A DNA stretch of 48,752 bases from Candidatus Borkfalkia faecavium. Its GTDB lineage: Bacteria > Bacillota > Clostridia > Christensenellales > Borkfalkiaceae. The stretch spans positions 1 through 48,752 of the forward strand of contig DXEW01000034.1 of NCBI GenBank assembly GCA_019114755.1. The letters are read 5' to 3'. Under the pieces are notes generated by a model that worked only from the letters and a program-made list of their open reading frames with translations, did no database searches and was not told the origin of the DNA. Position numbers and translations under genes: made by a program. Position 1 is the stretch's first letter; every line of letters starts with the position of its first letter. Below, piece after piece: positions 19,105-33,469 of the stretch.

Positions 19105-19160
19105 GAATGGAGAGTGTAGAATGTAAAATGTAGAATGTAAAATTGAGGATGATTTAAAAC
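19105..19160. repeat. TGTARAA heptamer repeat (family F1)
   Basis: An array of AATGTAGAATGTAAAAT-type heptamers followed by TTGAGG. The same family occurs at 28113-28209, 29930-30028, 30278-30318 and 48340-48514. Confidence 0.75.
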
Positions 19161-19161
19161 G

Positions 19162-19487
19162 ATACTCGAAAAAGGCAAAATCACACTTTTGCCTTTTTCA
19201 CCCTACAGCGAGGAGCTGCACGGGGAAAGGTGAAGCCGCGGCATTTTGATAAAGGTGTGCCCTGAAAACAAACAGGGTTCCCGAAAATCGCAGCGGAGCG
19301 AGATTTTTGGGAAGAAGAGCGGCAGGCGCTGCGGGCAAGGCGGCAAGCATAGCGCGCCGTCTGCCACGGCGCCTTGCCAGCGACGAGGCGGCGAGGAAAA
19401 CCCCGCGGCTAGCCGAACGGCGCCCCGCGGGGTTGTCTTCTGATCACGAAATTTTGTTTCATCAGCTTGAAACAAAATTTGTGAACC
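19162..19487 (-). ncRNA. candidate structured RNA element, copy A (interrupted by an insertion)
   Basis: Third member of a family also at 30332-30549 and 31500-31722, read here on the minus strand from 19487 downwards. Helix P1 has the invariant TCAC/GTGA base with a bulged C and a 13-bp arm, AAATTTTGTTTCA with its complement. Helix P2 pairs GAAGACAACCCCGCGG with CCGCGGGGTTTTCCTC. A P4 helix closes TTCACC with GGGTGAA, and P5 pairs AAAAAGGCAAAA with TTTTGCCTTTTT. About 125 bases (19269-19393) of another repeat family are inserted at the place of P3. It starts 2 bases after the permease stop, between permease and adenine deaminase. Not recognised as a known RNA. Confidence 0.6.
19269..19393. 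repeat. family F3 repeat inserted in structured element A
   Basis: Begins AACAGGGTTCCCGAAAATCG and continues with GCGAGATTTTTGGGAA and GGCGGCAAGCATAGCGC. It matches 48541-48660 over nearly its whole length, and the first third matches 30063-30110. CCCGAAAATC and GATTTTTGGG form a hairpin. Confidence 0.8.
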
Positions 19488-19489
19488 TT

Positions 19490-20998
19490 TTAGTGCGTAA
19501 ACAAGAACGTAAACAGGAACACGAGCGTGAGGATGGCGGTGACGGGGCTGATGTCTTTGACTTTGCCCGTGCACAGCTTGATGATCGTGTAGGAGATGAA
19601 GCCCGCCGCGATGCCGTAAGAGATGGAATAGGTGAAGCTCATGACGGCGATGGTGAGGAAGGCGGGAACGGCGGCTGCGGGGTCTTTCCAGTCGATATTG
19701 ACCACGTTGCCCATCATCAATACGCCCACGTAGATGAGCGCGCCCGCCGTGGCGCACTGCGGGATGAGCGCGGCGATGGGGCTTAAGAACATGGCGATGA
19801 TGAACAGCACGCCCACCACGAAGGCGGTGAAGCCCGTCCTGCCGCCCTCGGCGACGCCCGAAGAGGACTCGACAAAGGTGGTGACGGTGGAAGTGCCGCA
19901 GATGGCGCCCGTGCAGGTGGCGATGGAGTCACACAGCAGCGCCTTTTGGATGTTTTTGACCTCGCCCGTTTCGTCGAGCAGGCCGCTCTCTTTGCCCGCC
20001 GCCTGGCAGGTGCCCATCAGCGTGCCGATGGTATCGAACATATCGACCATGGCGAAGGCGACGAGGGTGGCGATGAAGTCGAAGATCTGGCTCGCTTCGA
20101 TGTTCTGCCAGCCTTCGGTGAACGCCTTGCCGAAAGAGACGGTGCCGAAATCGACGAACGCCTGCAGGGGGTTGTTGAATTCGATCTCGTCGAACACGGC
20201 CTTGCAGGAGTCGGAACCCGCCGCCAGGCCGATGCCGAGGAAGGCGTAGTACAGGAGCGCGCTGCCGATGATGCCGAACACCATGGCGCCCTTGACTTTG
20301 AGCTTGGCGAGGATGGCGATGATGAGCAGCGACACGATCGCCATGGCGGCTTTGATCATGGCTGCGCCGGAAACAGTGAAGTTCAAGAGGTTGAAGGAAA
20401 TGAGCGTGACCTTGGTGCTCGCATCCAGCGCCACGATGCCGGCATTCTGCAAGCCGACAAAGGCGATGAACAGGCCGATGCCCGCGGGGATGGCGATGCG
20501 GATGGCCTCCGGCACCGCGCGCACGATCATTTTACGCGCGCCGACGATGGTCAGGATGAGGAACAGCACGCCCGAGCACAGCACGATGAGCAGAGCGTTG
20601 GCATAGGTATAGCCCAGCCCGAAGCAGACCGTGTACACGAAGAAGGCGTTGAGCCCCATGCCCGGCGCCTGCGCGAAGGGGAGCTTGGCCAAAAACGCCA
20701 TCAGCATGGTGCCGATGATGGCGCCGATCGCCGTGAAGATGTACGCCGCGCCGAACGTGACGCCGTACGCCGGCTCTAACGCGGAGAACATGTCGGCATT
20801 GACGATGAGGATGTACACCATCGTCATGAAGGTGGTCAGGCCTGCGAGCATCTCCGTCTTGAAGGAAGACTTCATCTTCGTGATGCCGAAGTAGTTGTCC
20901 ACCGCCCCGAGGAAGCCCTTGTTGTTCACGGTGACGACCGCTTCGCCGCCTGCCGGCTCTTCGACCTGCGGCTGTTCGGTGTTTTGATTTTCAGTCAT
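19490..20998 (-). CDS. NCS2-family purine permease (AzgA/PbuG-like)
   Basis: 502 residues from the ATG at 20998, chosen for GGAGG 8 bases upstream; the longer frame runs into leader hairpins. About a dozen membrane segments. The family landmarks are visible: MLAGLTTFMTMVYI, NAFFVYTV, AIPAGIGLFIAFVGLQNAGI and the loop MVDMFDTIGTLMGTC. This subgroup imports adenine, guanine or hypoxanthine by proton symport. The adjacent adenine deaminase suggests adenine or hypoxanthine as substrate (inference). The last codons abut the structured element copy A. Exact purine specificity cannot be read from sequence alone. Confidence 0.92.
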   Translation of the reverse strand: MTENQNTEQPQVEEPAGGEAVVTVNNKGFLGAVDNYFGITKMKSSFKTEMLAGLTTFMTMVYILIVNADMFSALEPAYGVTFGAAYIFTAIGAIIGTMLMAFLAKLPFAQAPGMGLNAFFVYTVCFGLGYTYANALLIVLCSGVLFLILTIVGARKMIVRAVPEAIRIAIPAGIGLFIAFVGLQNAGIVALDASTKVTLISFNLLNFTVSGAAMIKAAMAIVSLLIIAILAKLKVKGAMVFGIIGSALLYYAFLGIGLAAGSDSCKAVFDEIEFNNPLQAFVDFGTVSFGKAFTEGWQNIEASQIFDFIATLVAFAMVDMFDTIGTLMGTCQAAGKESGLLDETGEVKNIQKALLCDSIATCTGAICGTSTVTTFVESSSGVAEGGRTGFTAFVVGVLFIIAMFLSPIAALIPQCATAGALIYVGVLMMGNVVNIDWKDPAAAVPAFLTIAVMSFTYSISYGIAAGFISYTIIKLCTGKVKDISPVTAILTLVFLFTFLFTH

Positions 20999-21037
20999 CA
21001 GAAAACCTCCGGTAAGTGTAATATCTATTCCCCGCAC

Positions 21038-21088
21038 AAACGGCGGGCAATATCCCCTGTTCTTTCCCGCACGAGCGGCGGGCAACGA
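21038..21088 (-). repeat. tandem hairpins in the permease leader
   Basis: Two near-identical units, TTGCCCGCCG-N6-GCGGG on the minus strand, each folding CCCGC with GCGGG, lie between promoter and ribosome site. They do not resemble a purine riboswitch: the conserved loop-loop sequences of that class are absent. Confidence 0.6.
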
Positions 21089-21153
21089 TTTATTTTGCCG
21101 CGGCGGACGCCGCGAACGGGCAGCGAAACGCTCTCCGCCACCGCTTCTACTCT

Positions 21154-21182
21154 ATTTTATCACAAGTTTTTAACAAAGGCAA
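21154..21182 (-). promoter_or_regulatory. promoter of the purine permease gene
   Basis: On the minus strand TTGCCT (21177-21182), 17-base spacer, TAAAAT (21154-21159). Leader of about 150 bases. Confidence 0.65.
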
Positions 21183-21238
21183 CCGCTTGCGGAAAATTCT
21201 TACACTTTTTGACAAATTCCGCACATTTTGCGGGCGGC

Positions 21239-21266
21239 AAAAGCGGCTCCCCCGCAGGGAAGCCGC
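21239..21266 (-). terminator. intrinsic terminator after the TIM-barrel gene
   Basis: Stem GCGGCT/AGCCGC (21243-21248 with 21261-21266) followed by TTTT on the minus strand, 6 bases past the stop. Confidence 0.7.
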
Positions 21267-21271
21267 ACGTT

Positions 21272-22063
21272 TCAGCCGATCTTATAGATGAGCTCGTCCA
21301 AATAGTCGCAGGAGCGCTTGAGCTCTGTATAATCGCCGTAGTCTTTGGGATACACCTCGATGAGGGCGGCGCCGTCAAAGCCGGCGTCTTTCAGCCGCCG
21401 CAGGCACTCTTCGAAGTCGAAGGTGCCCTGCCCCGGCAGGCAGATATTGCCGCGCTCGTCAACGTCGGAGAGGTGGACGTGCGAGATGCAGCCTTCCATA
21501 TCCTTGATGTACATTTGATAGGGCCAGCAGGAGAGGCGCGCCTGCTTGACGTCTAAAACGCCCAAAAGGTCGGGGCAGAGGCGGCGCAGGGGCGCAAACA
21601 GCCCCGGGCGGTTGTACAGCGCCCAGTGCACGTTTTCCAGGCACAGGCGCACGCCGTGCTCGGCGCAGGCCGCCATGATCTCGGCAAAGGCGGGGGCGAG
21701 CTTTTCAGGGTCCGCGGGGGCGGCGTTGCGCTTGAGGCGCGTGGTGCCGTGGAAGGTGTAGCGCCCCGCCCCGAAGATGTGCGCCGAACGCATCGCCCCG
21801 TGCAGCAGGCGGAAGGCGTCCGCCTTGGCGCGCGGGTGCTGCCCGAACAGCTGCGGCTCGAACTCGGTATTTAAGATGTGCACGGAATTGACGAACAAAT
21901 TCCCCTTCCGCTCGGCGAGCAGGCGGGCAAATTCTTCGGTATATTCGGAAAAGGTGGTGAGGAAGACCTCGGTGGCGCGCACGCCCAGCCCGCTGAGGAC
22001 GGAGAGCGCGTCTTCGTTCATTTCCCGCAAAAACAGAGAGGAGGTGGAAACGCCTGTGATCAT
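21272..22063 (-). CDS. sugar phosphate isomerase/epimerase-like TIM-barrel protein
   Basis: 263 residues of the xylose-isomerase-like / AP-endonuclease-2 superfamily. Recognisable positions are GVRATEVFL, NSVHI, TFHGTT, CLENVHWA, LGVLDVKQA, SHVHLSDVD and ALIEVYPKDY; the glutamates, histidines and aspartate in these segments match the family's metal site. The substrate is not identifiable. Its ATG is 8 bases after the stop of the glycerol-1-phosphate dehydrogenase gene (TGAGGT serves as ribosome site), so the pair form an operon, and a role near phosphorylated polyols or sugars is a reasonable inference. Confidence 0.85.
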   Translation of the reverse strand: MITGVSTSSLFLREMNEDALSVLSGLGVRATEVFLTTFSEYTEEFARLLAERKGNLFVNSVHILNTEFEPQLFGQHPRAKADAFRLLHGAMRSAHIFGAGRYTFHGTTRLKRNAAPADPEKLAPAFAEIMAACAEHGVRLCLENVHWALYNRPGLFAPLRRLCPDLLGVLDVKQARLSCWPYQMYIKDMEGCISHVHLSDVDERGNICLPGQGTFDFEECLRRLKDAGFDGAALIEVYPKDYGDYTELKRSCDYLDELIYKIG

Positions 22064-22071
22064 GCTGTACC

Positions 22072-23211
22072 TCAGTAGAAGAGCGACATGAGCTCGTCCG
22101 CCGCCCCTGCCATCAGCCCGTACTTGTTGTATAAGGTCATGACGGTGAAGCGGTCACGGATCTTATAGCAGTTGAAGAGCATATCGCGCACGGTATCCGC
22201 CGAAACGCCGATCTGCGAAAAGCGGGTGGGGCAGCCGAGGGAAGAGAGCACCTCCCCCACCCACGCGGAGTCGGGGAGCGCTTCGGCAAGCGAGACGGCC
22301 GCCTCTTTGCCGGGGAACGCCTGCGGGATCGTTTGCAGGCGGTGGTACATGTGCAGCGACACCATCGTGCCCAGCCCCACCTTGACCCCGTGCAGGGGGA
22401 TGGGCTGGCCGCGGCGCAGAAAGTCCATCTCTAAAAAGTGCGACATGTGGTGCTCCGCGCCGCTGGCGGGGCGGGAATTGCCGGCGATGACCATGGCGTA
22501 GCCGGAGATGAGCAGGGCGCGCATCAGGCTGTCGATCCCCTCTCTTCCGCAGGCGGTGATGCTGCCGATGTTGTCGACGCAGGCGGAGAGCGCCGTGCGC
22601 ATGAGCGAAGCGGCCTCTTCGTCATACTCCTCGCCCGTCAGAAGGTGCGAAAGTTTCCAGTCGGTGAGGCAGCAGAACTTGGCGAGGATGTCGCCGATGC
22701 CCGCGCCCGTCATGATGCGGGGCGCGGCGCAGAGGATATCGAAGTCGATGAGGATATCCGACACCGTTTGGGCGTTTTCGGTGATCTTGAACCCCTTTTT
22801 GATGAGCGGGGTGACGCCCGAGGTGAAGCCGTCCATACTGGCGGCGGTGGCGAGCACGCCGCACTTCTTCCCCAAATGGAAGGTGGTGTATTTGGCGATG
22901 TCGTTGAGGGTGCCGGCGCCCACGGCGAGCACATAATCGCTGCCACCGATGGCGGAGGAGACGCGGGCGCACGTCTTTTCGTCGGCGACGGGTTCGCGCT
23001 CTTCCAGCACAAACAGGCGCGCCTTGACGCCCGCGGCGCGAAGGGAGCCGAGCATGGGCTGCGCGTAGATTTGCGTGTTCAAGTCGCACAGCACCATCAC
23101 ATCTTTGCCCTGCATGCGGGAAAGAAAGGAGGGAAAGCCCCCTTCCTGCTTATACTCGGCATGAATGCCGAACTTTTCAGACAATTTGCAGATATCTGTC
23201 ACGTTTTCCAT
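22072..23211 (-). CDS. egsA: sn-glycerol-1-phosphate dehydrogenase (EgsA/AraM family)
   Basis: 379 residues from the ATG at 23211; the frame stays open far upstream but that part is antisense to other genes. It resembles B. subtilis AraM/EgsA, an NAD(P)-dependent enzyme reducing dihydroxyacetone phosphate to sn-glycerol-1-phosphate. Motifs: VGAGTLNDIAKYTTF, TAASMDGFTSGVTPL, GAGIGDILAKFCCLTDW, then SRPASGAEHHMSHFLEM and LHGVKVGLG carrying the metal-binding His residues. In Bacillus the gene lies inside the arabinose operon; here arabinose genes lie 5-10 kb away. The promoter places the transcript start at the ATG itself, suggesting a leaderless mRNA. Confidence 0.9.
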   Translation of the reverse strand: MENVTDICKLSEKFGIHAEYKQEGGFPSFLSRMQGKDVMVLCDLNTQIYAQPMLGSLRAAGVKARLFVLEEREPVADEKTCARVSSAIGGSDYVLAVGAGTLNDIAKYTTFHLGKKCGVLATAASMDGFTSGVTPLIKKGFKITENAQTVSDILIDFDILCAAPRIMTGAGIGDILAKFCCLTDWKLSHLLTGEEYDEEAASLMRTALSACVDNIGSITACGREGIDSLMRALLISGYAMVIAGNSRPASGAEHHMSHFLEMDFLRRGQPIPLHGVKVGLGTMVSLHMYHRLQTIPQAFPGKEAAVSLAEALPDSAWVGEVLSSLGCPTRFSQIGVSADTVRDMLFNCYKIRDRFTVMTLYNKYGLMAGAADELMSLFY

Positions 23212-23218
23212 ACTTAAA

Positions 23219-23247
23219 ATTGTAGCACAACCGCGGGGCAAGGTCAA
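23219..23247 (-). promoter_or_regulatory. promoter of egsA, start site at or next to the ATG
   Basis: On the minus strand TTGACC (23242-23247), 17-base spacer, TACAAT (23219-23224), then seven bases and ATG (23211). No Shine-Dalgarno sequence fits in between. Confidence 0.75.
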
Positions 23248-23268
23248 CCGAAATGCGAAAATTTTGCA

Positions 23269-23297
23269 TTGACAGAAAAATTTTCGGGTGGTATAAT
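23269..23297 (+). promoter_or_regulatory. consensus promoter of the thioesterase gene
   Basis: TTGACA (23269-23274), exact 17-base spacer, TATAAT (23292-23297): a perfect match to the sigma-A consensus, back to back with the egsA promoter 21 bases away. Confidence 0.85.
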
Positions 23298-23376
23298 GGC
23301 AGAAGAGACATAACCAAGCCAAAAGGGCGCATGGTGCTTCCAAAAAATAAAGAGCCGCCGCCCGAAGGAGGAATGA

Positions 23377-23814
23377 ATGAACTTTTTGCCCTACCGCCAC
23401 AAGGCGCAGTATTACGAGACGGATACCATGAAGATCGTGCACCACTCCAACTACATCCGCTGGATGGAAGAGGCGCGGGTGGATATGCTGGAGCAGATGG
23501 GGCTCGGCTACGACGCCATGGAAAGAGAGGGCGTTTTGAGCCCCGTGCTGTCGGTGGAGTGCGAATACAAGTCGATGACGCGCTTCCCCGAAACGGTGGA
23601 GATAACCGTGCGGCTTACCCGCTATACGGGGGTGAAGTTCGAGCTGGAATACGAGATGCGGGATGCCGCCTCCGGCACCCTGCGCGCAAAGGGCAAAAGC
23701 GCCCACTGCTTTATCGACCAGAGCGGCAGGCCCGTCTCGCTGCGGCGCAAGTTCCCAGCCTGGGATGCGCTGTTCAAGTCGTATGCGGAAAATCAGGCTC
23801 CCCCTGTTCAATGA
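23377..23814 (+). CDS. acyl-CoA thioesterase, YbgC/4HBT hot-dog family
   Basis: 145 residues, one hot-dog domain. The motif YYETDTMKIVHHSNYIRWMEEAR (as YYETDTMKIVHHSNY, IRWMEEAR; residues 12-34) contains the catalytic-site Asp and the HxNY signature of YbgC/4-hydroxybenzoyl-CoA thioesterases, which cleave short acyl-CoA or acyl-ACP. Start from GGAGG five bases before the second of two overlapping ATG codons. Strong own promoter and terminator: a single-gene unit. Physiological substrate unknown. Confidence 0.88.
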   Translation: MNFLPYRHKAQYYETDTMKIVHHSNYIRWMEEARVDMLEQMGLGYDAMEREGVLSPVLSVECEYKSMTRFPETVEITVRLTRYTGVKFELEYEMRDAASGTLRAKGKSAHCFIDQSGRPVSLRRKFPAWDALFKSYAENQAPPVQ

Positions 23815-23841
23815 GCGCACTTTCGGGGCACCGACGTCCGA

Positions 23842-23878
23842 GCGGGCGCCCTTCCGCAAGGGAGGGCGCCCGCTTTTT
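23842..23878 (+). terminator. terminator cassette copy 1 (after thioesterase)
   Basis: Stem GCGGGCGCCCT/AGGGCGCCCGC around a small inner hairpin TTCCGCAAGGG, then TTTTT. Nearly identical to 25544-25579. Confidence 0.92.
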
Positions 23879-24017
23879 GTTTTGCCCGAACGGACGTTTT
23901 TTGAAGAGAGACCCGGACGGGCGGCCTTGCCCGCTTTGCGGCGCCCTTTTTGGGCGGCTTTTGCCCGATTTTCAGAGAGATTCCTAAAACTTGGGAGCAA
24001 AATACGCCCCTTCTGCC

Positions 24018-24046
24018 TTGAAAACATATCCCGCATATGGTAAAAT
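24018..24046 (+). promoter_or_regulatory. promoter of the HTH membrane regulator
   Basis: TTGAAA (24018-24023), 17-base spacer, TAAAAT (24041-24046), 33 bases upstream of the ATG. Confidence 0.75.
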
Positions 24047-24079
24047 GTTCGGCGAAGAACGACAAGAGGTGAACAGACA

Positions 24080-25495
24080 ATGACGAAGACGGATGTGGGC
24101 GGGTTCCTTGCCGCCCTGAGAAAAGCAAAGGGATATACGCAGGCGGAAGCGGCGGAGCTTTTGGGCGTTTCCAACAAGACGGTGAGCAACTGGGAGACGG
24201 GCGTGAGCAGCCCCGACATCTCTATGCTGCCCGCCCTCGCCGAGCTGTACGGCGTGACCTGCGACGAGATCGCCCGCGGGCAGCGCATCGCCCCCGCGGA
24301 GAGCGAAAGAGCGACGAGCGCCAAGCGCGAAAAGGCGATGGCGCGGCTGCTGGAAAAACAGCGCGCCGACCTGTTTGCCGCCTGCTGCATCTGCGGCGGG
24401 CTGACGGTGCTGGGCATCATCCTCGCCCTCGCCGTCGGCTGCGGGGCGCTGGAAAGCCTGATCGGCTTTTTTGTGGGGCTGATCCCCATCGCCGCCTCGG
24501 CGGTAACGGCGGCGGTGATGGTGCGGCGCATCCGCTTTGCCGCCGGCGGCGAGGCGGAGAGCGCGGGGCAGGCGAAGCTGCTGCGCGCGGCGGACAGTTC
24601 GCTGTTCTGGCTGCTGCTGGCGGACATCGCCGCCTTCGGCTTCATCTTTCCGCACGCCTTCGCGCCCGTGCATACGGGGCTGAACTTGGAAGACGCCCTG
24701 CTCGCGGGAACGGCCGCGGCGCTGCTGTTTGCGGCTGCGGCAGCCGTCATCTATGCCGTCGCCCGCGCCGCGCGCAAAAATAAGGCGGTGCAGGCGGCGG
24801 TGGCGGCGGGATCGGTGCCGCCCGAACGGGCAAAGGCGATGCGGCGCCGCTCGCTCCTGCCCGTGTGGCTGTTTGCCCTGCCTTCGACAGCGGCCATCCT
24901 GCTATGCCCCTTCCTTTTCGTACTCGCCGCCAACGTGACCGTCTATATAGAAGGCGACAAGACGAACACGTTCGATACCGTGCAGGAGATGGAAGCCTTT
25001 GCCGAAGAGAGCGAACTGTTTGCAGACTTTGCCCACGAGCTCGTCTCCGAAGAGGAGCCGCAAGAAGGCGAGGCTGACCGCTGCGCCCTCGTGTACCGCT
25101 TTGCGGAAGCGCCCGCAGAGCTGCTCGCTTACTACAACTATGAAGAGCGGGAGGACGGCCTCTATGTGACCGTCTACGAATACAGTTACGAGGCGGTGAC
25201 AGAAGAAGGAACAAAGACGCATGAGCTTTTGGCCCGCAACCCTAAGCTGCAGGGCGGCGTGGAACAGATCGAAGCCGACGAAGCATGGGGCGTATGCTCT
25301 ATCCGCTATGCGCCCGACCTGCAGACCTCCGCCACCGTCCGCCTGCGGAGCATGCTGCAAAGCGGGCTGTACGCGGGCGCCATAGGCTTCGGCTGCCTGT
25401 ACCTTATTTACCTCGCCGTGAGCATCCCCCTCTACGCCCGCAAGAAAAAGCAGTGGCTCCGCGAGGAAGATGCGAAGAAAAATGCGGCAAACTGA
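24080..25495 (+). CDS. XRE-type helix-turn-helix protein with membrane domain
   Basis: 471 residues. The N-terminal ~60 residues are an HTH_3 domain: FLAALRKAKGYTQAEAAELL followed by GVSNKTVSNWETGVSSPD and LPALAELYGVTCDEI. Then come hydrophobic segments near residues 100-150 (two), 175-195, 210-235 and 260-285, an extracytoplasmic acidic domain of about 150 residues, and a last membrane segment near 435-460 (YAGAIGFGCLYLIYLAV). The protein could sense an envelope or external signal and bind DNA from the membrane; targets are unknown. RBS AGAGGTGA. It is flanked by promoter and terminator as a single unit. Confidence 0.85.
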   Translation: MTKTDVGGFLAALRKAKGYTQAEAAELLGVSNKTVSNWETGVSSPDISMLPALAELYGVTCDEIARGQRIAPAESERATSAKREKAMARLLEKQRADLFAACCICGGLTVLGIILALAVGCGALESLIGFFVGLIPIAASAVTAAVMVRRIRFAAGGEAESAGQAKLLRAADSSLFWLLLADIAAFGFIFPHAFAPVHTGLNLEDALLAGTAAALLFAAAAAVIYAVARAARKNKAVQAAVAAGSVPPERAKAMRRRSLLPVWLFALPSTAAILLCPFLFVLAANVTVYIEGDKTNTFDTVQEMEAFAEESELFADFAHELVSEEEPQEGEADRCALVYRFAEAPAELLAYYNYEEREDGLYVTVYEYSYEAVTEEGTKTHELLARNPKLQGGVEQIEADEAWGVCSIRYAPDLQTSATVRLRSMLQSGLYAGAIGFGCLYLIYLAVSIPLYARKKKQWLREEDAKKNAAN

Positions 25496-25543
25496 GCACC
25501 TGCGGCAAGGCAGTTGCGCGCAAAAAGACAGGAAAACGCAGCG

Positions 25544-25579
25544 GCGGGCGCCCTTCCGCAAGGGAGGGCGCCCGCTTTT
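25544..25579 (+). terminator. terminator cassette copy 2 (after the HTH gene)
   Basis: Same stem GCGGGCGCCCT/AGGGCGCCCGC and same inner sequence as 23842-23878, followed by TTTT and a TTTTGCTTTG-type run. Confidence 0.9.
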
Positions 25580-25627
25580 GTTTTGCTTTGTTCTGCTTTG
25601 TTTTGCCCGCGCCGCACTTTTGCGCGC

Positions 25628-25960
25628 TTACAGGCTGTTCATGGCGCCGACGATGGTCGACAAAAAGTTCTCTTCGCCGACGGTGTTGACCTTGAAAAAG
25701 GTCGCTTGGCTGCCTCCCGCCGTGATGGCGGAAATTTTATATACGCCGTTGGAACCCGCCACCGTGACCGCCATGCTGACGCGGTTAGATCCAAACCAAC
25801 TGTAGCGCTCGTACACGCGCACCACGCACTCGTATCCCTCGCCCGAAAGGACGCTCTCTTCTTCAAACGAGGCGGACATGCTGCCGTTCATCACGGCGTC
25901 GTGCAAGGTCTTTACAATAGTTTGGAAGTCGCCTTTGACCGTGCGCTCCGCTCTTGCCAT
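25628..25960 (-). CDS. small conserved protein, DUF6054-like
   Basis: 110 residues, no signal peptide or membrane segment. Contains VVRVYERYSWFGSNRVSM, ISAITAGGSQATFFKVNT and GEENFL, a pattern I associate with the uncharacterised DUF6054 family of Firmicutes; that family link is from memory and tentative. ATG preceded by GGAGG with 8-base spacing. Lies 35 bases downstream of the alpha-galactosidase-like gene, so probably co-transcribed. Confidence 0.75.
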   Translation of the reverse strand: MARAERTVKGDFQTIVKTLHDAVMNGSMSASFEEESVLSGEGYECVVRVYERYSWFGSNRVSMAVTVAGSNGVYKISAITAGGSQATFFKVNTVGEENFLSTIVGAMNSL

Positions 25961-25995
25961 ATCCCCTTCCTCCTCAAATCGATATGCGCGCCGCC

Positions 25996-28053
25996 CTATT
26001 CGCTCTTTTCAAACAAAAAGGCGCCCGCCGTGTATTCGGACTTGGGCGAAAAGCGCAGAGCGCCCCCCTGCAGCGAAAAGTCAAGCGTGGTATATGCCCC
26101 CGCCAGGCGCCAGCCGGAAACGTCTGCCTCCGCCCGCGCGTAGGGGCGGCGGAAAAAGTGCGCCAGCAGCAGCATGCGCCTGCCGTCCGCCGATACCTTT
26201 TTGTACAGCTGGCAGCCGCGCGGGTCGCGGTAGTACTTGACGTCGCAGTATATTTCGGCGATGCTGCCCGTGCGGACGACCTCTTTGACGGCGTTGTAGA
26301 ATTCGATGCCCTCGCGGATCTTCGCCTTTTGCGCCGCGCCGATCTTATGCACATCGCCCGAGACGCAGATGCGGCCGAACATCGCCGCCGTCATCGACCA
26401 GACGATGCGGTCGATGGAGTCGCCCTCGCGGATGACCGCCCAGATCTGGCTCTGCCGCGCGGGGACGACGCGGGAGACGTTGGCGGCGACCAGCGGGATC
26501 TCGTTGCATTCGTGCGCGTCGGAAAAGCTGCACATCGACACCTTGCTCATGCGCAGCGGCTCGATGCGGGAGCCCCCCGAAGAGCAGTTTTCAATGACGA
26601 TGCCCGGCACCGCCGCTTCCAGCCTGTCAAGCCACGAAAGGCTCTCTTCTGCCACCTGCCGCCCCGCCTCGCCGAGGCTTTCCGCCCCGTCGCAGCCCAT
26701 GCCGTAGTTGTCGTTGTAGTCGATCTTGATATAGCCGAAGCCGTTTTCGCGCAGAAAATCGCACATCTTTTCCTGTATGTACGCCTGCACGGCGGGCTTG
26801 CGCAGGTCGAAAAAGCGCCTGTTTTTGCTGGTGAGGGTGACGCCGTCGCGCGAGAGGAGCATTTCCGGTTTGCGGAATGCCTTGCTGTCTCGCCCCGCCA
26901 CCTCGAACTCGAACCACAACCCCGGCAGCATGCCGCGGCTTCGGATCATTTGGGCGACGGCGCCGATGCCGCGGGGGAACAGCTCTTTGTTCTGCTCCCA
27001 ATCGCCCGTGGCGTTGCACCAGCCGCAGTCGTCCGGCTTGTACCAGCCGCAGTCGATGACGAAATAGTCGAAGGGGATGCCCTCGACGGCGCGGAGGATG
27101 GAAGCGATGTTCTCTTCGCTCGGCACCCCCCAGGTGGTACAGTATTCGTTGAAGAGGACGGGCATGTTCTCTTCGCTTGCGGGAAGGCACAGGCGGGCGT
27201 CCTGATAGCGCAGAAGGTCGTTGCAGGCGTCTTCGAGGGAGCCGAAGCGGACGCGCACAAAGGCGCGGTGGGTGCAAAAGCTTTCCCCCGCCCCGATGCG
27301 CTTGTACCAATGGCCGAACTCGCGGTCGGCGAGCCCGCCCGAGAGGGCGCAGGTCTCCTTCTCCTTATACACCTCCATCTGCCAGCTGTACGGCGCTTCG
27401 ATGGCGGCGGCGAGGATGAAGCCGCTCCCCTCGTCGCAGAGGGCGGCGAAGGGATACCAGCCGCGGTTCGGCATGCTGCCCACCTGGCCGAAGCGCTCGG
27501 CCTTGACGCCGTAGCGCCCCCAGCTCATGTCTAAGCCGAGGTCGCAGAACTCGTCTTCCTTGAGGCGGCATTCGCGGCTCCAGGCGCTGGTCATGCGGAC
27601 GAGCTTGAGGCCTTCGTCCGTTATCCTGCCCGCGGAGGGGGCGAAGATGCCGCTGAGGGAAAAGCTCTGCAGGCTTTCCAGCACCTGCTCTTTGCCCGTG
27701 TGGTTTTGGTATTCGACGAAGATGCAGAATACCCCCGTAGCGGCGTCGTAAGCGAGGGTGTGGATATATTCGTTGCCCTGCCCGTCGGCAAGGCGGGTGA
27801 CGACGGTATCCCCTTCCCGCCGCTGCTCCGCGATCGTGAGCAGCACGGACGACATGTTGCGCATGGTGACGCCCTGCGTGTAGTCGACGAGGTTATACGC
27901 CCCGCGCAGGGAGACCTGCACCATGCTGTCGCAGGAGAGCTCGTCGGGGTCGGCGGAAACGGAGACAGGCAGCAGGCACAGCCCCGTGCCGAAGCCCTGC
28001 ATCTGTACATAATAAGCGGCGGTATCGCCGAAGATGTATTTACGGTATAACAT
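25996..28053 (-). CDS. GH36-family alpha-galactosidase-like glycoside hydrolase
   Basis: 685 residues from the ATG at 28053; a TTG at 28071 would add six residues, and neither has a clear ribosome site. Beta-sandwich N-terminal region, then a TIM barrel with family segments YFVIDCGWY, GLWFEFEV, GYIKIDYNDNYG (nucleophile Asp in KIDYN, residue ~454), ENCSSGGSRIEP and CSFSDAHE (acid/base region). GH36 enzymes release alpha-linked galactose or N-acetylgalactosamine. No signal peptide, so it acts on imported oligosaccharide. Downstream of araBDA in the same direction, suggesting plant-polysaccharide use. Linkage specificity not deducible. Confidence 0.87.
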   Translation of the reverse strand: MLYRKYIFGDTAAYYVQMQGFGTGLCLLPVSVSADPDELSCDSMVQVSLRGAYNLVDYTQGVTMRNMSSVLLTIAEQRREGDTVVTRLADGQGNEYIHTLAYDAATGVFCIFVEYQNHTGKEQVLESLQSFSLSGIFAPSAGRITDEGLKLVRMTSAWSRECRLKEDEFCDLGLDMSWGRYGVKAERFGQVGSMPNRGWYPFAALCDEGSGFILAAAIEAPYSWQMEVYKEKETCALSGGLADREFGHWYKRIGAGESFCTHRAFVRVRFGSLEDACNDLLRYQDARLCLPASEENMPVLFNEYCTTWGVPSEENIASILRAVEGIPFDYFVIDCGWYKPDDCGWCNATGDWEQNKELFPRGIGAVAQMIRSRGMLPGLWFEFEVAGRDSKAFRKPEMLLSRDGVTLTSKNRRFFDLRKPAVQAYIQEKMCDFLRENGFGYIKIDYNDNYGMGCDGAESLGEAGRQVAEESLSWLDRLEAAVPGIVIENCSSGGSRIEPLRMSKVSMCSFSDAHECNEIPLVAANVSRVVPARQSQIWAVIREGDSIDRIVWSMTAAMFGRICVSGDVHKIGAAQKAKIREGIEFYNAVKEVVRTGSIAEIYCDVKYYRDPRGCQLYKKVSADGRRMLLLAHFFRRPYARAEADVSGWRLAGAYTTLDFSLQGGALRFSPKSEYTAGAFLFEKSE

Positions 28054-28112
28054 AGGCTTGTAAATCTTCAAATGATATGACTTTGAATTGGTGTTTGAAA
28101 AAACCGCATCAA

Positions 28113-28209
28113 GAAAAAATGTAAAATGTAGAATGTAAAATGTAGAATTGAGGATGGTTAAAAAAGTATTTTATTTTCTTTCCATAATTTACCATTCTAC
28201 ATTTTTTGC
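28113..28209. repeat. F1 heptamer repeats in inverted arrangement
   Basis: Left arm AAAAAATGTAAAATGTAGAA and right arm CATTCTACATTTTTT enclose about 50 AT-rich bases, so the unit can form a long hairpin. It lies between araA and the GH36 gene. Confidence 0.7.
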
Positions 28210-28240
28210 CGTGTTCGGAACGGCTTTAACGTTCCAGACA

Positions 28241-28352
28241 AGATCCCTCGACTGGCGCTTAGGATGACAAGGTGGGTATTCGTTTTCAGAGATCCTTCGG
28301 CTTGCTTCGCTCGCTCAGGATGACAGGAAAGGCGCTCCTTAGGATGACAGGA
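28241..28352. repeat. F2 repeats (GATCC-TTCG...CTCAGGATGACA)
   Basis: Two to three degenerate copies of GATCCTTCGGCTTGCTTCGC followed by TCGCTCAGGATGACAGG. Related copies: 30030-30248, 31340-31375 and, inverted, 48384-48419. Confidence 0.75.
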
Positions 28353-28413
28353 TAAACAGCCTCGCGAACGAAGAAAGGGGCAGCGGCGCCGCCCCCTTCC
28401 GGATCATAGCAAA

Positions 28414-29871
28414 TTATTTGCGCTTCCAGACGATATCCGACCACTGCAGGTCTTTTTTGAACTGCTCGATCTTGGTGTTTTCGTCGATGAGGACGACCTC
28501 GATTCCCCACATGTTGCCGAGGTCTACCATTTCCTGCGCGGTGATCTGCGACGAGACGACGGTGTGGTGCGCGCCGCCCGCATAGATCCATGCTGCCACG
28601 CCCTCTTTGAAGTTGGGCTGATATTTCCACATCAGGCCGCCGACGGGCAGGTTGGGCATCTTGTGCGGGTACTTGACCAGCTCGATCTTCTGCACGATGA
28701 GGCGCAGGCGATCGCCCATGTCGATCATGGATACGGCGATGGCTTCGGGCGCGGAGATGCCTTCGAACACGAGGCGGGCGGGGTCAGACTTGCCGCCGAT
28801 GCCGAGCGGGTGCACCTGGATCTCGGGCTTGGTGGCGGCGAACTGCGGGGATACTTCCAGCATGTGCGCGCCCAGGCAGAGGCCGTCGGCGAGGTCGTAG
28901 GTGTAGTCTTCCATCAGGCCCGTGCCCTTCTGCCCTGCCATATACTGCATGGTGGCGCCCAGCGCCGCGATCTTCCAGTCGCCTTCGGCGCCGAAGCCGT
29001 AGCCCTTGCCCTGCAGGTCCTGAATGGCGAGGCCGGGCAGCTGGTTCATGCCGTGCAGCGAGCCGAAGTGATCGACGATGCCGATATAGCCGCCCTTGTC
29101 TTTGCAGAATTTATCGATGGCGATCTCGTACTTCGCCTGTTCGCGCACGACGTCGATGCGGTCGGTGGCCATGGTGTACTTTTGGGCATATTCCGCCATC
29201 AAAGCGTCCACCTCGGCGTCGGTGACGACGTCGATATAGTCGACAAGATCGCCCACGGGATAGTAATCGACCTGCCAGCCGAGGTCGATGTGCGCTTCCA
29301 CCTTGTCGCCCTCGGTGACGGCGACGTCGCGCATGTTGTCGGAGAAGCGGCAGACCTTGAGCTCTTTGGAGAAGGCGTAGCCGGCGGCGACTTTGCACCA
29401 GGAAGCCAGCTCTTTGAGGGCCTGTTCGTCCTTATAATAGCCGACGATCACCTTATTGTCCATGCGCAGGCGCGCCACGATGTAGCCGAATTCGCGGTCG
29501 CCGTGAGCCGCCTGGTTCTCGTTCATGAAGTCCATGTCGATGGTGTCGTACGGCAGCTTTTCGTTGTACTGGGTGGCGAAGTGGCACATGGGCTTTTGCA
29601 GCTTGGAAAGGCCGCGGATCCACATCTTCGCCGGGGAGAAGGTGTGGCACCAGGTGATGATGCCGATGCAGTCGTCGTCGGCGTTGACCTGTTTGACCGC
29701 CGCTTCGATCTCGTCGGAGCTCTTGCAGGTGGTCAGGTACTTGACGGTGACGGGCATATGCTCGTTGACGTAGTTTGCCATCTCTTCGGAGTGCTGCGCG
29801 ACGTGCTCCAACACGTCGGCGCCGTACAGCGTCTGAGAGCCTGTGATCCAGTAGACGATTTTTTCTTTCAT
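28414..29871 (-). CDS. araA: L-arabinose isomerase
   Basis: 485 residues, near the usual ~500, converting L-arabinose to L-ribulose with Mn2+. The N-terminus carries WITGSQTLYGADVL; family segments include TWCHTFSPAKMWI, HFATQYNEKLP, GAEGDWKIAALG, DYTYDL, HMLEVSP and the C-terminal AAWIYAGGAHHTVVSS with metal-ligand histidines. GAGGT lies 9 bases before the ATG. Third in the order araB, araD, araA, all minus strand, but separated from araD by 660 bases of repeats. Confidence 0.97.
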   Translation of the reverse strand: MKEKIVYWITGSQTLYGADVLEHVAQHSEEMANYVNEHMPVTVKYLTTCKSSDEIEAAVKQVNADDDCIGIITWCHTFSPAKMWIRGLSKLQKPMCHFATQYNEKLPYDTIDMDFMNENQAAHGDREFGYIVARLRMDNKVIVGYYKDEQALKELASWCKVAAGYAFSKELKVCRFSDNMRDVAVTEGDKVEAHIDLGWQVDYYPVGDLVDYIDVVTDAEVDALMAEYAQKYTMATDRIDVVREQAKYEIAIDKFCKDKGGYIGIVDHFGSLHGMNQLPGLAIQDLQGKGYGFGAEGDWKIAALGATMQYMAGQKGTGLMEDYTYDLADGLCLGAHMLEVSPQFAATKPEIQVHPLGIGGKSDPARLVFEGISAPEAIAVSMIDMGDRLRLIVQKIELVKYPHKMPNLPVGGLMWKYQPNFKEGVAAWIYAGGAHHTVVSSQITAQEMVDLGNMWGIEVVLIDENTKIEQFKKDLQWSDIVWKRK

Positions 29872-29929
29872 TTTATTTACCTCGAAAAATTTTTTTAATT
29901 TGAATGTGCCGTTGGGCGGAGCCGCCGAT

Positions 29930-30028
29930 ATAAAATTTAAAATGTAAAATTTAGAATGTAAAATTGCGGAGAGATAAAAGGATCATTTTTAAACGCATCC
30001 AAAATTCTACATTTTACACTTTTCATTT
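29930..30028. repeat. F1 heptamer repeats in inverted arrangement
   Basis: TTTAAAATGTAAAATTTAGA on the left and AAAATTCTACATTTTACAC on the right, about 40 bases apart. Lies upstream of araA. Confidence 0.7.
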
Positions 30029-30029
30029 A

Positions 30030-30331
30030 AACATGAGATCCTTCGACTGCGCATTTTTAGGCCTCCCGAAAATCGCAGCGCAGCGAGATTTTTGGGAAGA
30101 GGAGCGGCAGGCGCGGCTTGCGGATGCGCTTGCGCGCAAGATTTCTCCACTCGGTCACTCTCTACGTTCGTTCCCTCGGTCGAAATGACAAGGGTGGTAT
30201 TTTTTTCAGAGACCCGTTCGACTCGCTTCGCTCGCTCAGGGTGACAGGGGCGCACCCGCGTGCTCGCCGCGCGGGAATATAAAATGTAGAATGTAGAATG
30301 TAGAATGTAAAATTGAGGTCGCTTCAAAACA
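30030..30331. repeat. mosaic of F2, F3 and F1 repeats between araD and araA
   Basis: In order: F2 fragment (30035-30052), F3 fragment with CCCGAAAATCGCAGCG (30063-30110), GCTTGCGGATGCGCTTGCGC (30116-30135, shared with 31313-31332), two F2 copies (30141-30193 and 30208-30248) and an F1 array (30278-30318). No gene seen. Confidence 0.75.
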
Positions 30332-30549
30332 AGACTCGCGCAAGCAAAATCACATTTTTGCGCCAGCGCACCCAATTTGCCGTAAGGCTTTCGCAGGAAA
30401 GGTGAAGGCTGTGCGCATTTTATAATGGCGTGCCCCTAAAAGCGCACAGCCGAGGAAAACTCCGATTGCGCCGCCCAAAGGGCGGTCAATGGGGTTTTCT
30501 TCAAATCACGACAAATAATTTTGTCAGCTCAAAATTATTTGTGTGAACC
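30332..30549 (-). ncRNA. candidate structured RNA element, copy B (between araD and araA)
   Basis: Minus-strand reading starts GGTTCAC at 30549. P1: TCAC base, arm ACAAATAATTTTG with its exact complement, bulged C, GTGA. P2: GAAGAAAACCCCATTG with CAATCGGAGTTTTCCTC. P3: GGCTGTGCGC with GCGCACAGCC, loop with TTTTAGGGGC and TTATAAA. P4/P5 resemble those of the other copies but are less regular. The first 15 bases are coding: they supply the last four residues and stop of araD. Intact compared with copy A. Family not recognised. Confidence 0.65.
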
Positions 30550-31239
30550 CTGCCCATAGTAGGCGTTTTTGCCGTGCTTGCGCAGGTAATGCTTATCCAT
30601 CATGAATTTATCGGCACGCTGCACTTTGGGATTGACCTGCTCGGTGATGAAGGCCATTTTGGCGACTTCTTCGATGACGGTGGCGTTGTAGACGGAGCCG
30701 TCGGCATCTTTGCCGAAGGCAAACACGCCGTGGCTTTTGATGAGCACGCCGGGCACTTCGATGGGATCGAGGCCGTCCTTTTTGAAGCGCTCGATGATGA
30801 CAAGGCCGGTATTCTTTTCATACTCCCCTTCGATCTCGGCCTGCGTCAGCGAGCGGGCGCAGGGGATATCGCCGTAGAAATAGTCGGCATGGGTGGTGCC
30901 GTAGAAAGGGATATCCCTGCCCGCCTGCGCCCAGGCGGTGGCAAAGGTGGAATGGGTATGGGTGACGCCGCCCACGTTGGGGAACGCCTTGTAGAACTCG
31001 ATATGGGTGGGCGTATCGCTGGAAGGGCGCAGCTTGCCGTCTACGACCTTGCCGTCTAAATCGACGACGACCATATCGTCGGCGGTCATGTCGTCATACG
31101 AAACGCCGCTGGGCTTGATGACGACGAGGCCGCTGGCGCGGTCGATCTGGCTGACGTTGCCCCAGGTAAACAGCACCAGATGATGCTTGACCAGATCGAG
31201 GTTTGCCTGTAATACCTTTTGCTTCAATTCTTCTAACAT
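30535..31239 (-). CDS. araD: L-ribulose-5-phosphate 4-epimerase
   Basis: 234 residues from the ATG at 31239 (AGGAG spacing 9; the ATG at 31245 would be only 3 bases from it). Class II aldolase-like epimerase producing D-xylulose 5-phosphate. Motifs: [26 protein letters not shown] and the zinc ligands in [17 protein letters not shown] and HADYF. It matches E. coli AraD up to [14 protein letters not shown], where the E. coli protein ends. Here four extra residues GSHK follow, encoded by the repeated structured element (copy B). Confidence 0.97.
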
Positions 31240-31309
31240 ATACATGATCTCCTATATGTTTGTTTTTTTGTTGCTGAAAACTGCTTTGGCGCCCGGATAC
31301 GGCAAAAGC

Positions 31310-31499
31310 GCCGCTTGCGGATGCGCTTGCGCACAAGACCCGTTCGACTCGCTGCGCTCGCTCAGGGTGACAGGGGCGGACGCCCCTCATCCGTCATTCG
31401 TTCCGAATGACACCTTCCCCCTAGGGGGAAGGCAAGGATGGGGCGGGTACCCGCGCGCTTGCCGCGCGGGACTGTCCGCAACTCTCTGTCGCTTCATCA
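31310..31499. repeat. mosaic of F2 and F5 repeats between araB and araD
   Basis: Contains the GCTTGCGGATGCGCTTGCGC block (31313-31332), an F2 copy (31340-31375), F5 with CCGTCATTCGTTCCGAATGA and the perfect 20-base palindrome at 31413-31432, and a CCGCGCGCTTGCCGCGCGG hairpin (31451-31469). F5 parts recur near 48315-48332 and at the window end. Confidence 0.75.
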
Positions 31500-31722
31500 A
31501 TACTCGAAAAAGGCAAAACCACGCTTTTGCCTTTTTCACCCTACAGCGGGGAGCTGCACGCGGAAAGAGTGAAGGCGACGCGCGTTTATAAACCGTGAGC
31601 CCCTAAAGGCGCGACGCCGAGAGAAAACCGGACGCAGAGCCGCTTTTCAAGCGGCGAACGTCGGGTTGTCTCTCCAATCACGAAAAACCGCAGCCGCCAA
31701 CGCGGCGAGGTTTTTGTGAACC
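31500..31722 (-). ncRNA. candidate structured RNA element, copy C (between araB and araD)
   Basis: Minus-strand reading starts GGTTCAC at 31722. P1: TCAC base, AAAAACC and GCCGC arms with complements, bulged C, GTGA; arms wholly different from copies A and B. P2: GAGAGACAACCCGACG with CGTCCGGTTTTCTCTC. P3: GGCGTCGCGC with GCGCGTCGCC (one U-U mismatch), loop TTTAGGGGC...TTTATAAA. P4: TTCAC with GGGTGAA. P5: AAAAAGGCAAAA with TTTTGCCTTTTT. It lies 151 bases after araB. The best-preserved copy together with B. Confidence 0.65.
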
Positions 31723-31873
31723 CCTTTTACCCCTCCCCGCTGCCCAAAGTAAAACCGTGGAGAGCGGTGCAGATTTCTGATTTATGAGCCAAGCGCAAAG
31801 GAGTGTATACAGAAATACATGACCGCCGCGCGCAGGCGATAGAAAGCGGAAAGATGCGCCGCTATACGCGGTT
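31723..31873. other. 151-base spacer between araB and element copy C
   Basis: No gene, clear hairpin or T-tract seen; the sequence looks like unremarkable spacer. Confidence 0.5.
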
Positions 31874-33469
31874 TTACATGTCTTTGACCGCTTCGCGCAC
31901 GATGGGCAGACCCTTCACATACCTCTTTGCAAACTCTTCAAACCCTGCAACGTCGGCGGGGTCGGGGGCGAGGGTGACGCCCTCCTGCCCGGCGAAGACT
32001 TTGTTGTTGAGGTAATCTTGCAGCGACTCGCCCGGTTCTTTGGTGACGACGTAGTTGGCGAGGATGGCGATGCCCCAGGCGCCGCCTTCCCCTGCCGTCT
32101 TCATGACGGTGACGGGCGCGTTGATGGCGGCGGCGAGATAGCTTTGGCCGACGCGTTCGGTCTTGAACAGGCCGCCGTGCCCGGTGATGGCATCCAGGCG
32201 GACGCCCTCTTCTTTGAGCATGATGTCGCACCCGACTTTCAGAACGCCCAGCGACGCGAACAGGTGGGCGCGCATGAAGTTGGCGAGGCTGAAGTTGCTT
32301 TCGGACGTGCGCACGAACATCGGCCTGCCGGCATCTACCTTGGTGATGTGCTCGTTGGAGACGTAGTTATAGGCGAGCAGCCCGCCGCAGTCTTTATCCC
32401 CCTTTTCGGAGCAGAAATAGAGCATATTGTACAGATCGGGCTTAGCGATCTCGACGCCCGCCAGCTTTGCGAACTCGTCGAACAAGTTCACCCAGCCGTT
32501 GAGGTCGGAAGTGCAGTTGTTGCAGTGCACCATGCCCACGGGGTCGCCCACGGGGGTGGTGACGAGGTCGATCTCGTCATACGGCCTGGAAAGTTCCTTT
32601 TCCAAAACGATCATCGCAAACACGGACGTGCCCGCGGAGACGTTGCCGGTGCGCGGCGCCACGGAATTGGTGGCCACCATGCCCGTGCCCGCATCGCCTT
32701 CGGGCGGGCAGAAGGGAATGCCCGGCTGCAAATTGCCGGAAGGATCGAGCAGTTTTGCCCCCTCTTCGGTCAGCCTGCCCGCCTCTTCGCCTGCGACCAA
32801 AATTTCGGGCAAAATATCTTCCACCTTGAAAGGAAGCCCGTACGGGGCGATGAGCTCGTCAAACTGTTTGAGCATGGCGGGGTTATAGCAGCGGGTGCCG
32901 GCGGCGATGGGGAACATGCCCGACGCCTCGCCGATGCCGATGACCTTGCGGCCGGTCAGCTTCCAGTGCACATACCCTTCGAGGGTGGTCTGGAAGTCGA
33001 TATCCTTGACGTGCTCTTCGCCGTTGAGGATGGCCTGATACAGGTGCGCCACCGACCAGCGGGCGGGGATATGATAGTTGAACAGCTGCGTCAGCTGTTC
33101 CGCCGCGGGGGCAGCGTTGTTGTTGCGCCAGGTGCGGAAGGGAACGAGCAGCTCGCCCGCCTTGTCGAACACCATATAGCCGTGCATCATGGCCGAAAAG
33201 CCGATGGCGCCCAGCGTCTTGACGGTGACGCCGTACTTGGCGCGCACGTCCTCCGCCATCTTGACGTAGCAGTCCTGCACGCCCGTCCAGATGTCTTCGA
33301 GGGTGTACGTCCAGATGCCGTTTTCCAGGCGGTTTTCCCAGTCGTGGCTGCCCGAGGCGATGGGGACGTTGTCCTCGTCCACGAGCACAGCCTTGATGCG
33401 CGTAGAGCCGAACTCGATGCCGAGCGCGGTCTTGCCGTTTTCAATGATCTGCCGATAATTTTTTTCCAT
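31874..33469 (-). CDS. araB: FGGY-family sugar kinase, probable ribulokinase
   Basis: 531 residues of the FGGY/hexokinase-actin fold. N-terminal phosphate-binding loop [18 protein letters not shown] (residues 17-34); then [28 protein letters not shown], the [12 protein letters not shown] hinge and the C-terminal [14 protein letters not shown] and [14 protein letters not shown] adenosine-binding segments. The class phosphorylates ketoses or polyols; its position before araD and araA makes L-ribulose the likely substrate, so the symbol rests on context. Weak ribosome site AGGGGTC. A promoter with a palindrome lies upstream. Confidence 0.88.

Follow-up and report, generated by a model that had tools for sequence, protein, structure and literature searches.

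Three copies in one stretch of DNA

We study a repeated element made of a chain of hairpins, three copies of which lie on a 48,752-nucleotide (nt) stretch of DNA from Candidatus Borkfalkia faecavium (positions 1 to 48,752 of contig DXEW01000034.1, assembly GCA_019114755.1), which we call the window. A preliminary description had placed three copies on its minus strand, and all three are present. Copy 1 (19162-19487) lies between a permease gene and an adenine deaminase gene, copy 2 (30332-30549) between araD and araA, and copy 3 (31500-31722) between araB and araD. Pfam agrees with the neighbours first named: Xan_ur_permease and adenine deaminase beside copy 1 and, in the ara region, an FGGY kinase (read as araB), a class II aldolase (read as araD) and L-arabinose isomerase (araA). 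For two of the three copies the first arm stands at a stop codon, 3 nt after that of the permease gene for copy 1 and overlapping that of araD for copy 2; the first arm of the copy behind araB begins 152 nt past the araB stop. We find that these copies are members of a dispersed family, larger than the three first noted, and the evidence below indicates that the family is most likely a DNA-level interspersed repeat and not a functional RNA.

The element is about 220-240 nt long, non-coding, and built of five hairpin modules (P1 to P5) followed by CGAGTATTATTTT. P1 begins with GTTCAC, has a long stem with a loop that is often AGCTGA, and ends in C-CGTGAT with an unpaired C. P2 is a stem around AACC/GGTT that comes in three types (A, B and C); P3 is a stem with a conserved loop near TTTAAGGGCACACC...TTATAAA; P4 reads TTCACC...GGGTGAA or shorter variants; P5 is an A-rich/T-rich stem with a GTGTGA- or GCGTGG-like loop.

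On the minus strand of the window, copy 1 has its P1 at 19443-19487 (GGTTCAC ... C-CGTGAT, with the bulged C at the base), P4 at 19197-19234 (TTCACC ... GGGTGAA) and P5 with the CGAGT tail at 19164-19198 (AAAAAGGCAAAA gtgtga TTTTGCCTTTTT), the last two placed by eye. It is 326 nt long because some 115 nt of a different dispersed repeat sit inside its third hairpin (19273-19387, minus strand, ends approximate and set by eye). Copy 2 has P1 at 30505-30549, a type B P2 at 30452-30502, P3 at 30407-30451 with its conserved loop near TTTTAGGGGCACGCCATTATAAA, and P4, P5 and the CGAGT tail at 30334-30406 (partly by eye). Copy 3 has a P1 of the G+C-rich type at 31677-31722, a type C P2 at 31619-31674 (by eye), P3 at 31574-31618, and P4, P5 and the CGAGT tail at 31502-31573 (partly by eye).

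These three are the only matches in the window (E values 6e-24, 1e-20 and 1e-12, with E up to 5 allowed) to R1, a covariance model of 123 positions that covers P1-P3 only and was built from 47 copies of several genomes, eight of them from this genome. Copies 2 and 3 are in the training set and match partly by construction; copy 1 is outside it. The pattern GTTCACN{10,40}GTGAT, which describes the first arm, occurs three times in the window where 0.34 occurrences are expected by chance, and none of 100 shuffles reaches three. Copy 2, the one copy that was folded, folds far better than its own shuffles, with z -6.3 for the DNA fold and z -5.0 for the RNA fold.

Other repeats accompany the element. 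The second dispersed repeat (CTCGTCGC...AAAATCTCGC...GGGA.CCCTG), besides its place at 19273-19387 in copy 1, is found at loci L017, L026, L031, L037 and L040; several copies contain it within P2 or P3, and it occurs in the opposite orientation too, for example downstream of the L001 copy. The spacers past the window copies (19105-19145, 30230-30315 and 31340-31435) hold more repeats, namely TTTACATTCTACATT runs, a CCTTCCCCCTAGGGGGAAGG palindrome and CACCCTGAGCGAGCG.AGCGAGTCGAACGGGTC stretches.

A dispersed, modular family beside gene edges

A search of the full genome with a covariance model was among the checks named by the preliminary description. In the genome that contains the window (G000; 1.73 Mb in 38 contigs, 89.9% complete), R1 finds at least 82 matches at E <= 0.01 among the best 150 of 893 candidates scored, some of them weak, and at least 75 at E <= 1e-4 (81 candidates scored). 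The first-hairpin pattern alone gives 11 rows in this genome, which are nine separate copies (one listed twice) and one match, L002, that was judged coding by eye and dropped. Across the genus Candidatus Borkfalkia, 36 of 40 genomes have matches at E <= 1e-4, with counts from 0 to at least 81 (one genome reaches 81, as many as were scored, and three have 80), and at this threshold R1 finds nothing in the other four (G043, G124, G158 and G169). In a search across the order that applied stricter filters and scored ten candidates in each genome, matches come from 10 of 297 genomes and 2 of 125 genera. Copies in the sister genus keep the order of the hairpins (P1-P3, and P4-P5 by eye) with most stems replaced. 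In named genomes the P1/P2 pattern returns 42 stretches, 11 from Candidatus Borkfalkia, 27 from uncultured Clostridia or Firmicutes and four presumed to be chance matches (L044 after reading its sequence; L063, L069 and L081 by organism only). Among viral contigs a single stretch matches one pattern and none matches the other.

The hairpins behave as exchangeable parts. Identical P1 sequences occur with differing P2 and tail types at separate sites: the P1 that starts TCACAAATTTTGTTTC is found at eight places, joined to all three types of P2 (A, B and C) and to tails T1 and T2 (five of the eight tails are unassigned; the genome has three tail types in all). At C20:7339 the P1 is chimeric, its two arms stemming from different P1 words that are no longer complementary. 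Because the same P1 is joined to different P2s and tails and because arms have been mixed, modules have been exchanged. Certain copies are cut or carry inserts. Copies also stand in tandem, four on contig C11 at a spacing of about 282 nt and three on C20, and a tail-to-tail pair lies in L012.

Alongside this mosaic we note several smaller features of the same genome. The four tandem copies at C11:640-1604 share an extra segment, GCTACCGCACCCGCAA.CGAA.CAGGTAGCACCC, between them. Another shared module (CCAAACCAAG.CAAAGCAA...CCCGCCCTGAAAGGCG) replaces the usual next hairpins after some P1 or P3, at C1:16500, C26:31194, C20:26496 and C20:35182. Fragments of 15-30 nt that look like half a P1, made of a left arm and a short run of bases (GAATGA, AATGA, AATAA or GTGAA, for example), stand immediately before some full copies (C3:15864, C12:102817, C15:11764, C20:26496 and C26:31194). 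One element inserted within the P1 of another was considered as their source and rejected, since no matching second half follows C17:80919, the one site inspected. Likewise a kissing contact between the P3 and P5 loops (CACAC with GTGTG), sought by eye, failed across the few copies inspected.

One irregularity of P1 is conserved. Of the 82 copies of the genome, 78 have C and 3 have T as the bulged base at the P1 foot, and the foot covaries around it: TCAC/GTGA in 61 copies, TCTC/GAGA in 13, TCGC/GCGA in 3 and other pairs in 5.

We next consider where the copies sit relative to genes, with neighbours called by a simple home-made gene caller based on codon usage. The gene upstream of the 82 copies is on the same strand in 58, on the opposite strand in 17 and not called in 7. 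In 30 of those 58, the start of P1 falls from -14 to +8 nt relative to the stop. Of the 54 among these 58 with both neighbours called, 28 start at -14 to +10 nt from the stop, where 7.0 are expected if copies fall uniformly in the spacer; the maximum in 10,000 simulations is 15. Six further copies are found near the start of an opposite-strand gene, at -10 to 27 nt, and by eye a GGAGG-like ribosome binding site stands beside P1 in four of the six. Since P1 is found near stops and also near opposite-strand starts, it is P1 that faces the gene at either end. Where a copy lies within 30 nt of a stop and the next gene is called (34 copies), that gene is co-directional in 23 cases and convergent in 11.

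Orthologous sites are occupied or empty among congeners. The end of araD was compared at 27 loci of 26 genomes, 26 of which show the gene end (L179 does not); three have short flanks after it (28 nt in L156, 103 nt in L170 and 56 nt in L178). A copy lies directly at the gene end in 8 of the 26 readable loci. In seven, our own and those of six further genomes (one per species), the same P1 arms come right after the last shared codon and the sequence differs from P2 onward; L161 has a different P1 that follows its own araD stop codon. Five araD loci have no element and a spacer of 69-75 nt to araA. Copy 2 itself supplies the last residues and the stop codon of araD (30535-30549): the frame reads GSHK and stops in P1, where the element-free L158 ends GSH. 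At the permease end, the element is present in the first 130 nt only in our own genome among the 24 examined (25 matched; L266, a partial match, was left out). A terminator-like hairpin called by script lies within 110 nt at this site in 19 of 23 element-free congeners, and none lies within 530 nt in our own genome. This remains a one-site remark: a general replacement of terminators by the element was rejected, as terminators in the genome occur at 9 of 38 gene ends with a copy and 14 of 53 without.

Covariation and the rules of pairing

The preliminary description had claimed that the helices differ between copies while staying complementary. We examined this in an alignment of 47 copies (A2), reached from 70 pattern hits by way of 64 and then 54 with the P3 end within the length limit; the exclusions are L023-L025 (chance matches in coding sequence, by eye), three duplicate starts, and seven copies with inserts or a cut P3. 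In it, 27 of 36 pairs change on both sides, in agreement with the claim. Under the P1-P2-P3 structure 93.7% of cells are paired, against 41-50% when one side is slid by 1-3 columns; this slid control matters most because the shuffle control ignores relatedness. Against shuffles, cells with double changes number 375 where the mean is 119.

How, then, are pairs lost when they are lost? RNA helices accept G-U and reject A-C, so a helix that works as RNA is expected to show G-T clearly more often than A-C at the level of DNA. We count both in covarying pairs, defined as those with at least two Watson-Crick types, and because mismatches and irregularities recur between copies in P2 (by eye), we treat P1 and P3 as the clean test helices. 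Over the 82 copies of the genome, P1 has 6 G-T and 5 A-C, P3 has 13 and 8 (19 against 13 for both), and all three helices together have 44 and 40. The 26 copies of the sister genus have 7 G-T and 9 A-C over all helices. RNase P RNA in 28 genomes of the genus gives 66 G-T and 4 A-C. When all pairs are counted, G-T and A-C stand at 46 and 61 in our own genome, 20 and 22 in A2, 7 and 11 in the sister genus, and 306 and 7 in RNase P RNA. The RNase P yardstick starts from 30 loci, of which L216 and L236 were left unaligned, with a structure from RNAalifold; it is used in place of tRNA, for which only 4 tRNAs and no counts were available. For P5 the tally is 343 Watson-Crick, 3 G-T, 1 A-C and 3 other pairs in the 35 of 82 copies recognised by script, a tally biased by the demand for at least 8 of 10 Watson-Crick pairs.

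Wobble pairs are thus treated in the element almost like any mismatch. G-T is about as rare as A-C, unlike in RNase P RNA, and therefore complementarity appears to be kept at the DNA level; the covariation argues for this and not for a working RNA. Of the two natures first proposed, functional RNA or single-strand-DNA hairpin, the DNA hairpin and mobile half fits the data and the RNA half is weakened by G-T being hardly commoner than A-C.

Explanations and relation to known repeats

We think it probable that the element is a proliferating, non-autonomous family of interspersed DNA-hairpin repeats, resembling REP (repetitive extragenic palindromic) or BOX repeats while being longer and modular. 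Its mobility is inferred from the copy number and from the polymorphism of sites. The copies, not autonomous themselves, would spread by means of an enzyme, and their arms would stay complementary because recognition or copying acts on a folded single strand of DNA: this strand might be recognised by a protein for which the hairpin has to be imperfect, which would keep the bulged base, or template switching during replication might recopy one arm from the other. Copies beside a stop codon may, as a side effect, be carried at the transcript's 3' end and influence it.

Several points weigh against this explanation. The P1 with the arms ACAAATAATTTTG/CAAAATTATTTGT has stayed the same at araD in seven genomes as P2-P5 changed, a pattern more in keeping with long residence than with fresh insertion, and no insertion was seen between genomes similar enough to reveal its precise ends or any target duplication. 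Two of the five measures of covariation are not extreme: pairs with double changes number 27 against 23.6 in shuffles (15 of 500 shuffles reach 27), and further pair types number 59 against 55 (43 of 500 reach 59). The A2 alignment leans to G-T, with 15 against 7 A-C in covarying pairs and 4 to 1 in P3 alone, and the RNase P yardstick is tolerant of G-U since RNAalifold accepts it when choosing pairs. Young copies with little time to mutate would likewise show few G-T pairs; to this we answer that many different stems had to arise, and arose Watson-Crick. The stop-codon test rests on the home-made gene caller and a uniform null, with later copies of tandem arrays included unseparated. Finally, no mobilising gene was found in a search for Y1 transposases and reverse transcriptases; integron integrases, IscB/TnpB and other recombinases were not searched for.

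An explanation that deserves real weight, even as we lean away from it, is that the palindromes are purely mutational, with template switching correcting one arm from the other, so that covariation arises without function or selection for structure. The near absence of both G-T and A-C is what such correction would leave, and chimeric P1s with mismatched arms, as at C20:7339, do occur. According to PMC8794818, template switching produces perfect stems and compensatory changes of several bases in a single step. However, it should erase the bulge at the P1 foot, which is kept as C or T in 81 of 82 copies, and also the P2 irregularities, which recur; moreover, the order P1-P3 is conserved across two genera (as is P4-P5, by eye). 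The kept bulge thus leads us to favour a DNA-hairpin element in which structure itself is important, perhaps assisted by template switching. Some proteins that read folded single-strand DNA use just such an irregularity, held constant while the stem around it changes. A bolder form of this idea, which we hold as tentative and rather doubt, is that the element belongs to a novel kind of mobile DNA: its chain of hairpins would be recognised purely by its single-strand fold, whatever the sequence, it would insert with P1 abutting a gene edge, and neither a Y1 transposase nor a reverse transcriptase would move it.

It is unlikely, in our judgement, that the copies act as a structured RNA in 3' untranslated regions, stabilising, processing or attenuating polycistronic mRNA. 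Such a role would sit well with the strong covariation, the stable RNA fold of the one copy folded, the strong preference for the first nucleotides past the stop codon, the A-tract and T-tract that form the arms of P5, and the permease site, where most element-free congeners have a terminator-like hairpin and our own genome has none nearby. Against it stand the pairing counts of P1, P3, A2 and the sister genus (6:5, 13:8, 15:7 and 7:9, compared with 66:4 for RNase P RNA), the four genus genomes that have no match, and the similar frequency of terminators with and without a copy; no terminator-like site is reported at P5 of copies 2 and 3. Furthermore, this role does not apply to six of the 82 copies, which face a gene start on the other strand.

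Movement by a Y1 tyrosine transposase, as a REP-like or IS200/IS605-derived element, is very improbable: hairpins with a conserved bulge, high copy number, nearness to stop codons and ends that are not inverted repeats by eye (GTTCAC..., ...CGAGTATTATTTT) would suit it, but Y1_Tnp has no match in our own genome (89.9% complete), Y1 is found in 2 of 8 genomes with at least 75 matches and in 4 of 4 without a match, and, of the REP foot tags, GTAG is present in the 15 nt before P1 in just 3 of 82 copies and CGTC in none. With no Y1 in the genome and no tracking of copy number, spread driven by IS200/IS605 or RAYT is not supported, and the early guess of an IS200/IS605-type element falls with it. 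By eye, the junctions of the 82 copies share no tetranucleotide before P1, such as a fixed IS200/IS605 target would leave at the left end. The reverse transcriptase family PF00078, which a retroelement or group II intron derivative would call for, likewise has no match in our own genome, the only one covered by that search. A MITE of a DDE transposon would be expected to show terminal inverted repeats and a target duplication; as said, the two ends do not look like inverted repeats by eye.

These results bear on how covariation is used. It is widely taken as strong proof of conserved RNA structure, and here a multi-copy DNA element gives extreme covariation. The simple ratio of G-T to A-C separates the element from RNase P RNA of the same genus and is usable as a check in the discovery of non-coding RNAs in metagenomes. 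If there is an enzyme that reads the folded strand, the genomes of one genus offer its substrates by the dozen, with matchless relatives as a natural control. Because copies hug stop codons, the effect of such repeats on translation and on transcript ends is directly testable.

The preliminary description had recognised no known class and named Rfam as the comparison to make; no family reaches its gathering score in the window or in six loci. With E up to 10, Rfam returns five rows for 30000-32000 (best E 0.12), all far below gathering scores and none of them HEARO. We found no account of the element in the literature among the titles and openings of abstracts listed, with most subscription journals outside this scope. 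A catalogue of candidate RNAs from human microbiomes may list it as a numbered entry; its main text never mentions Borkfalkia (PMC8040213).

Among known systems, HEARO had been proposed as a possible identity, and the stretches scanned with Rfam do not bear this out. HEARO, or the IscB-associated omega RNA, is structured, mobile and often found without its gene; the element differs in having no Rfam match at gathering score in the window and six loci, a comparison in which IscB or TnpB genes were not searched for. The bcr1-type repeats of the Bacillus cereus group are dispersed, structured and intergenic, with a size about that of the element; we know of no motif they have in common with it, the two being compared by description and not by sequence.

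BOX, RUP and SPRITE of Streptococcus pneumoniae are also small interspersed repeats with extensive secondary structure, and BOX is modular like the element, although they belong to another host group and are again likened by description rather than sequence. BOX supplies the stop codon of a gene in 36 cases, and the main text of the same account uses neither the word covariation nor compensatory change (PMC3049150). This supply of stop codons resembles what we see at araD.

The element also resembles REP, BIME and REPIN sequences with their TnpA-REP (RAYT), which share many copies, extragenic hairpins, mosaic arrangement and nearness to stop codons. The mosaic arrangement of REPs is described in PMC2817692, and the share of REPs within 15 nt of a stop codon in PMC12306157, where in E. 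coli 446 of 4,072 predicted REPs are near the stop codon by one count and 260 of 496 by another. REP hairpins act as single-stranded DNA, and the bulge of the E. coli REP is required for activity while another group consists of perfect palindromes (PMC8266576). The element differs in its length of 220-240 nt and its five hairpins (REPs have 20-40 nt), in lacking a GTAG/CGTC foot, in that nearly every helix differs between copies, and in that Y1 is neither found in our own genome nor tracks the copies.

The attC sites of integrons work as folded single-strand DNA in which structure is conserved and sequence is variable; they carry an extrahelical base, have the core GTTRRRY and lie just after stop codons. 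The element, in comparison, has five hairpins, starts with GTTCAC instead of GTTRRRY, and has its copies scattered.

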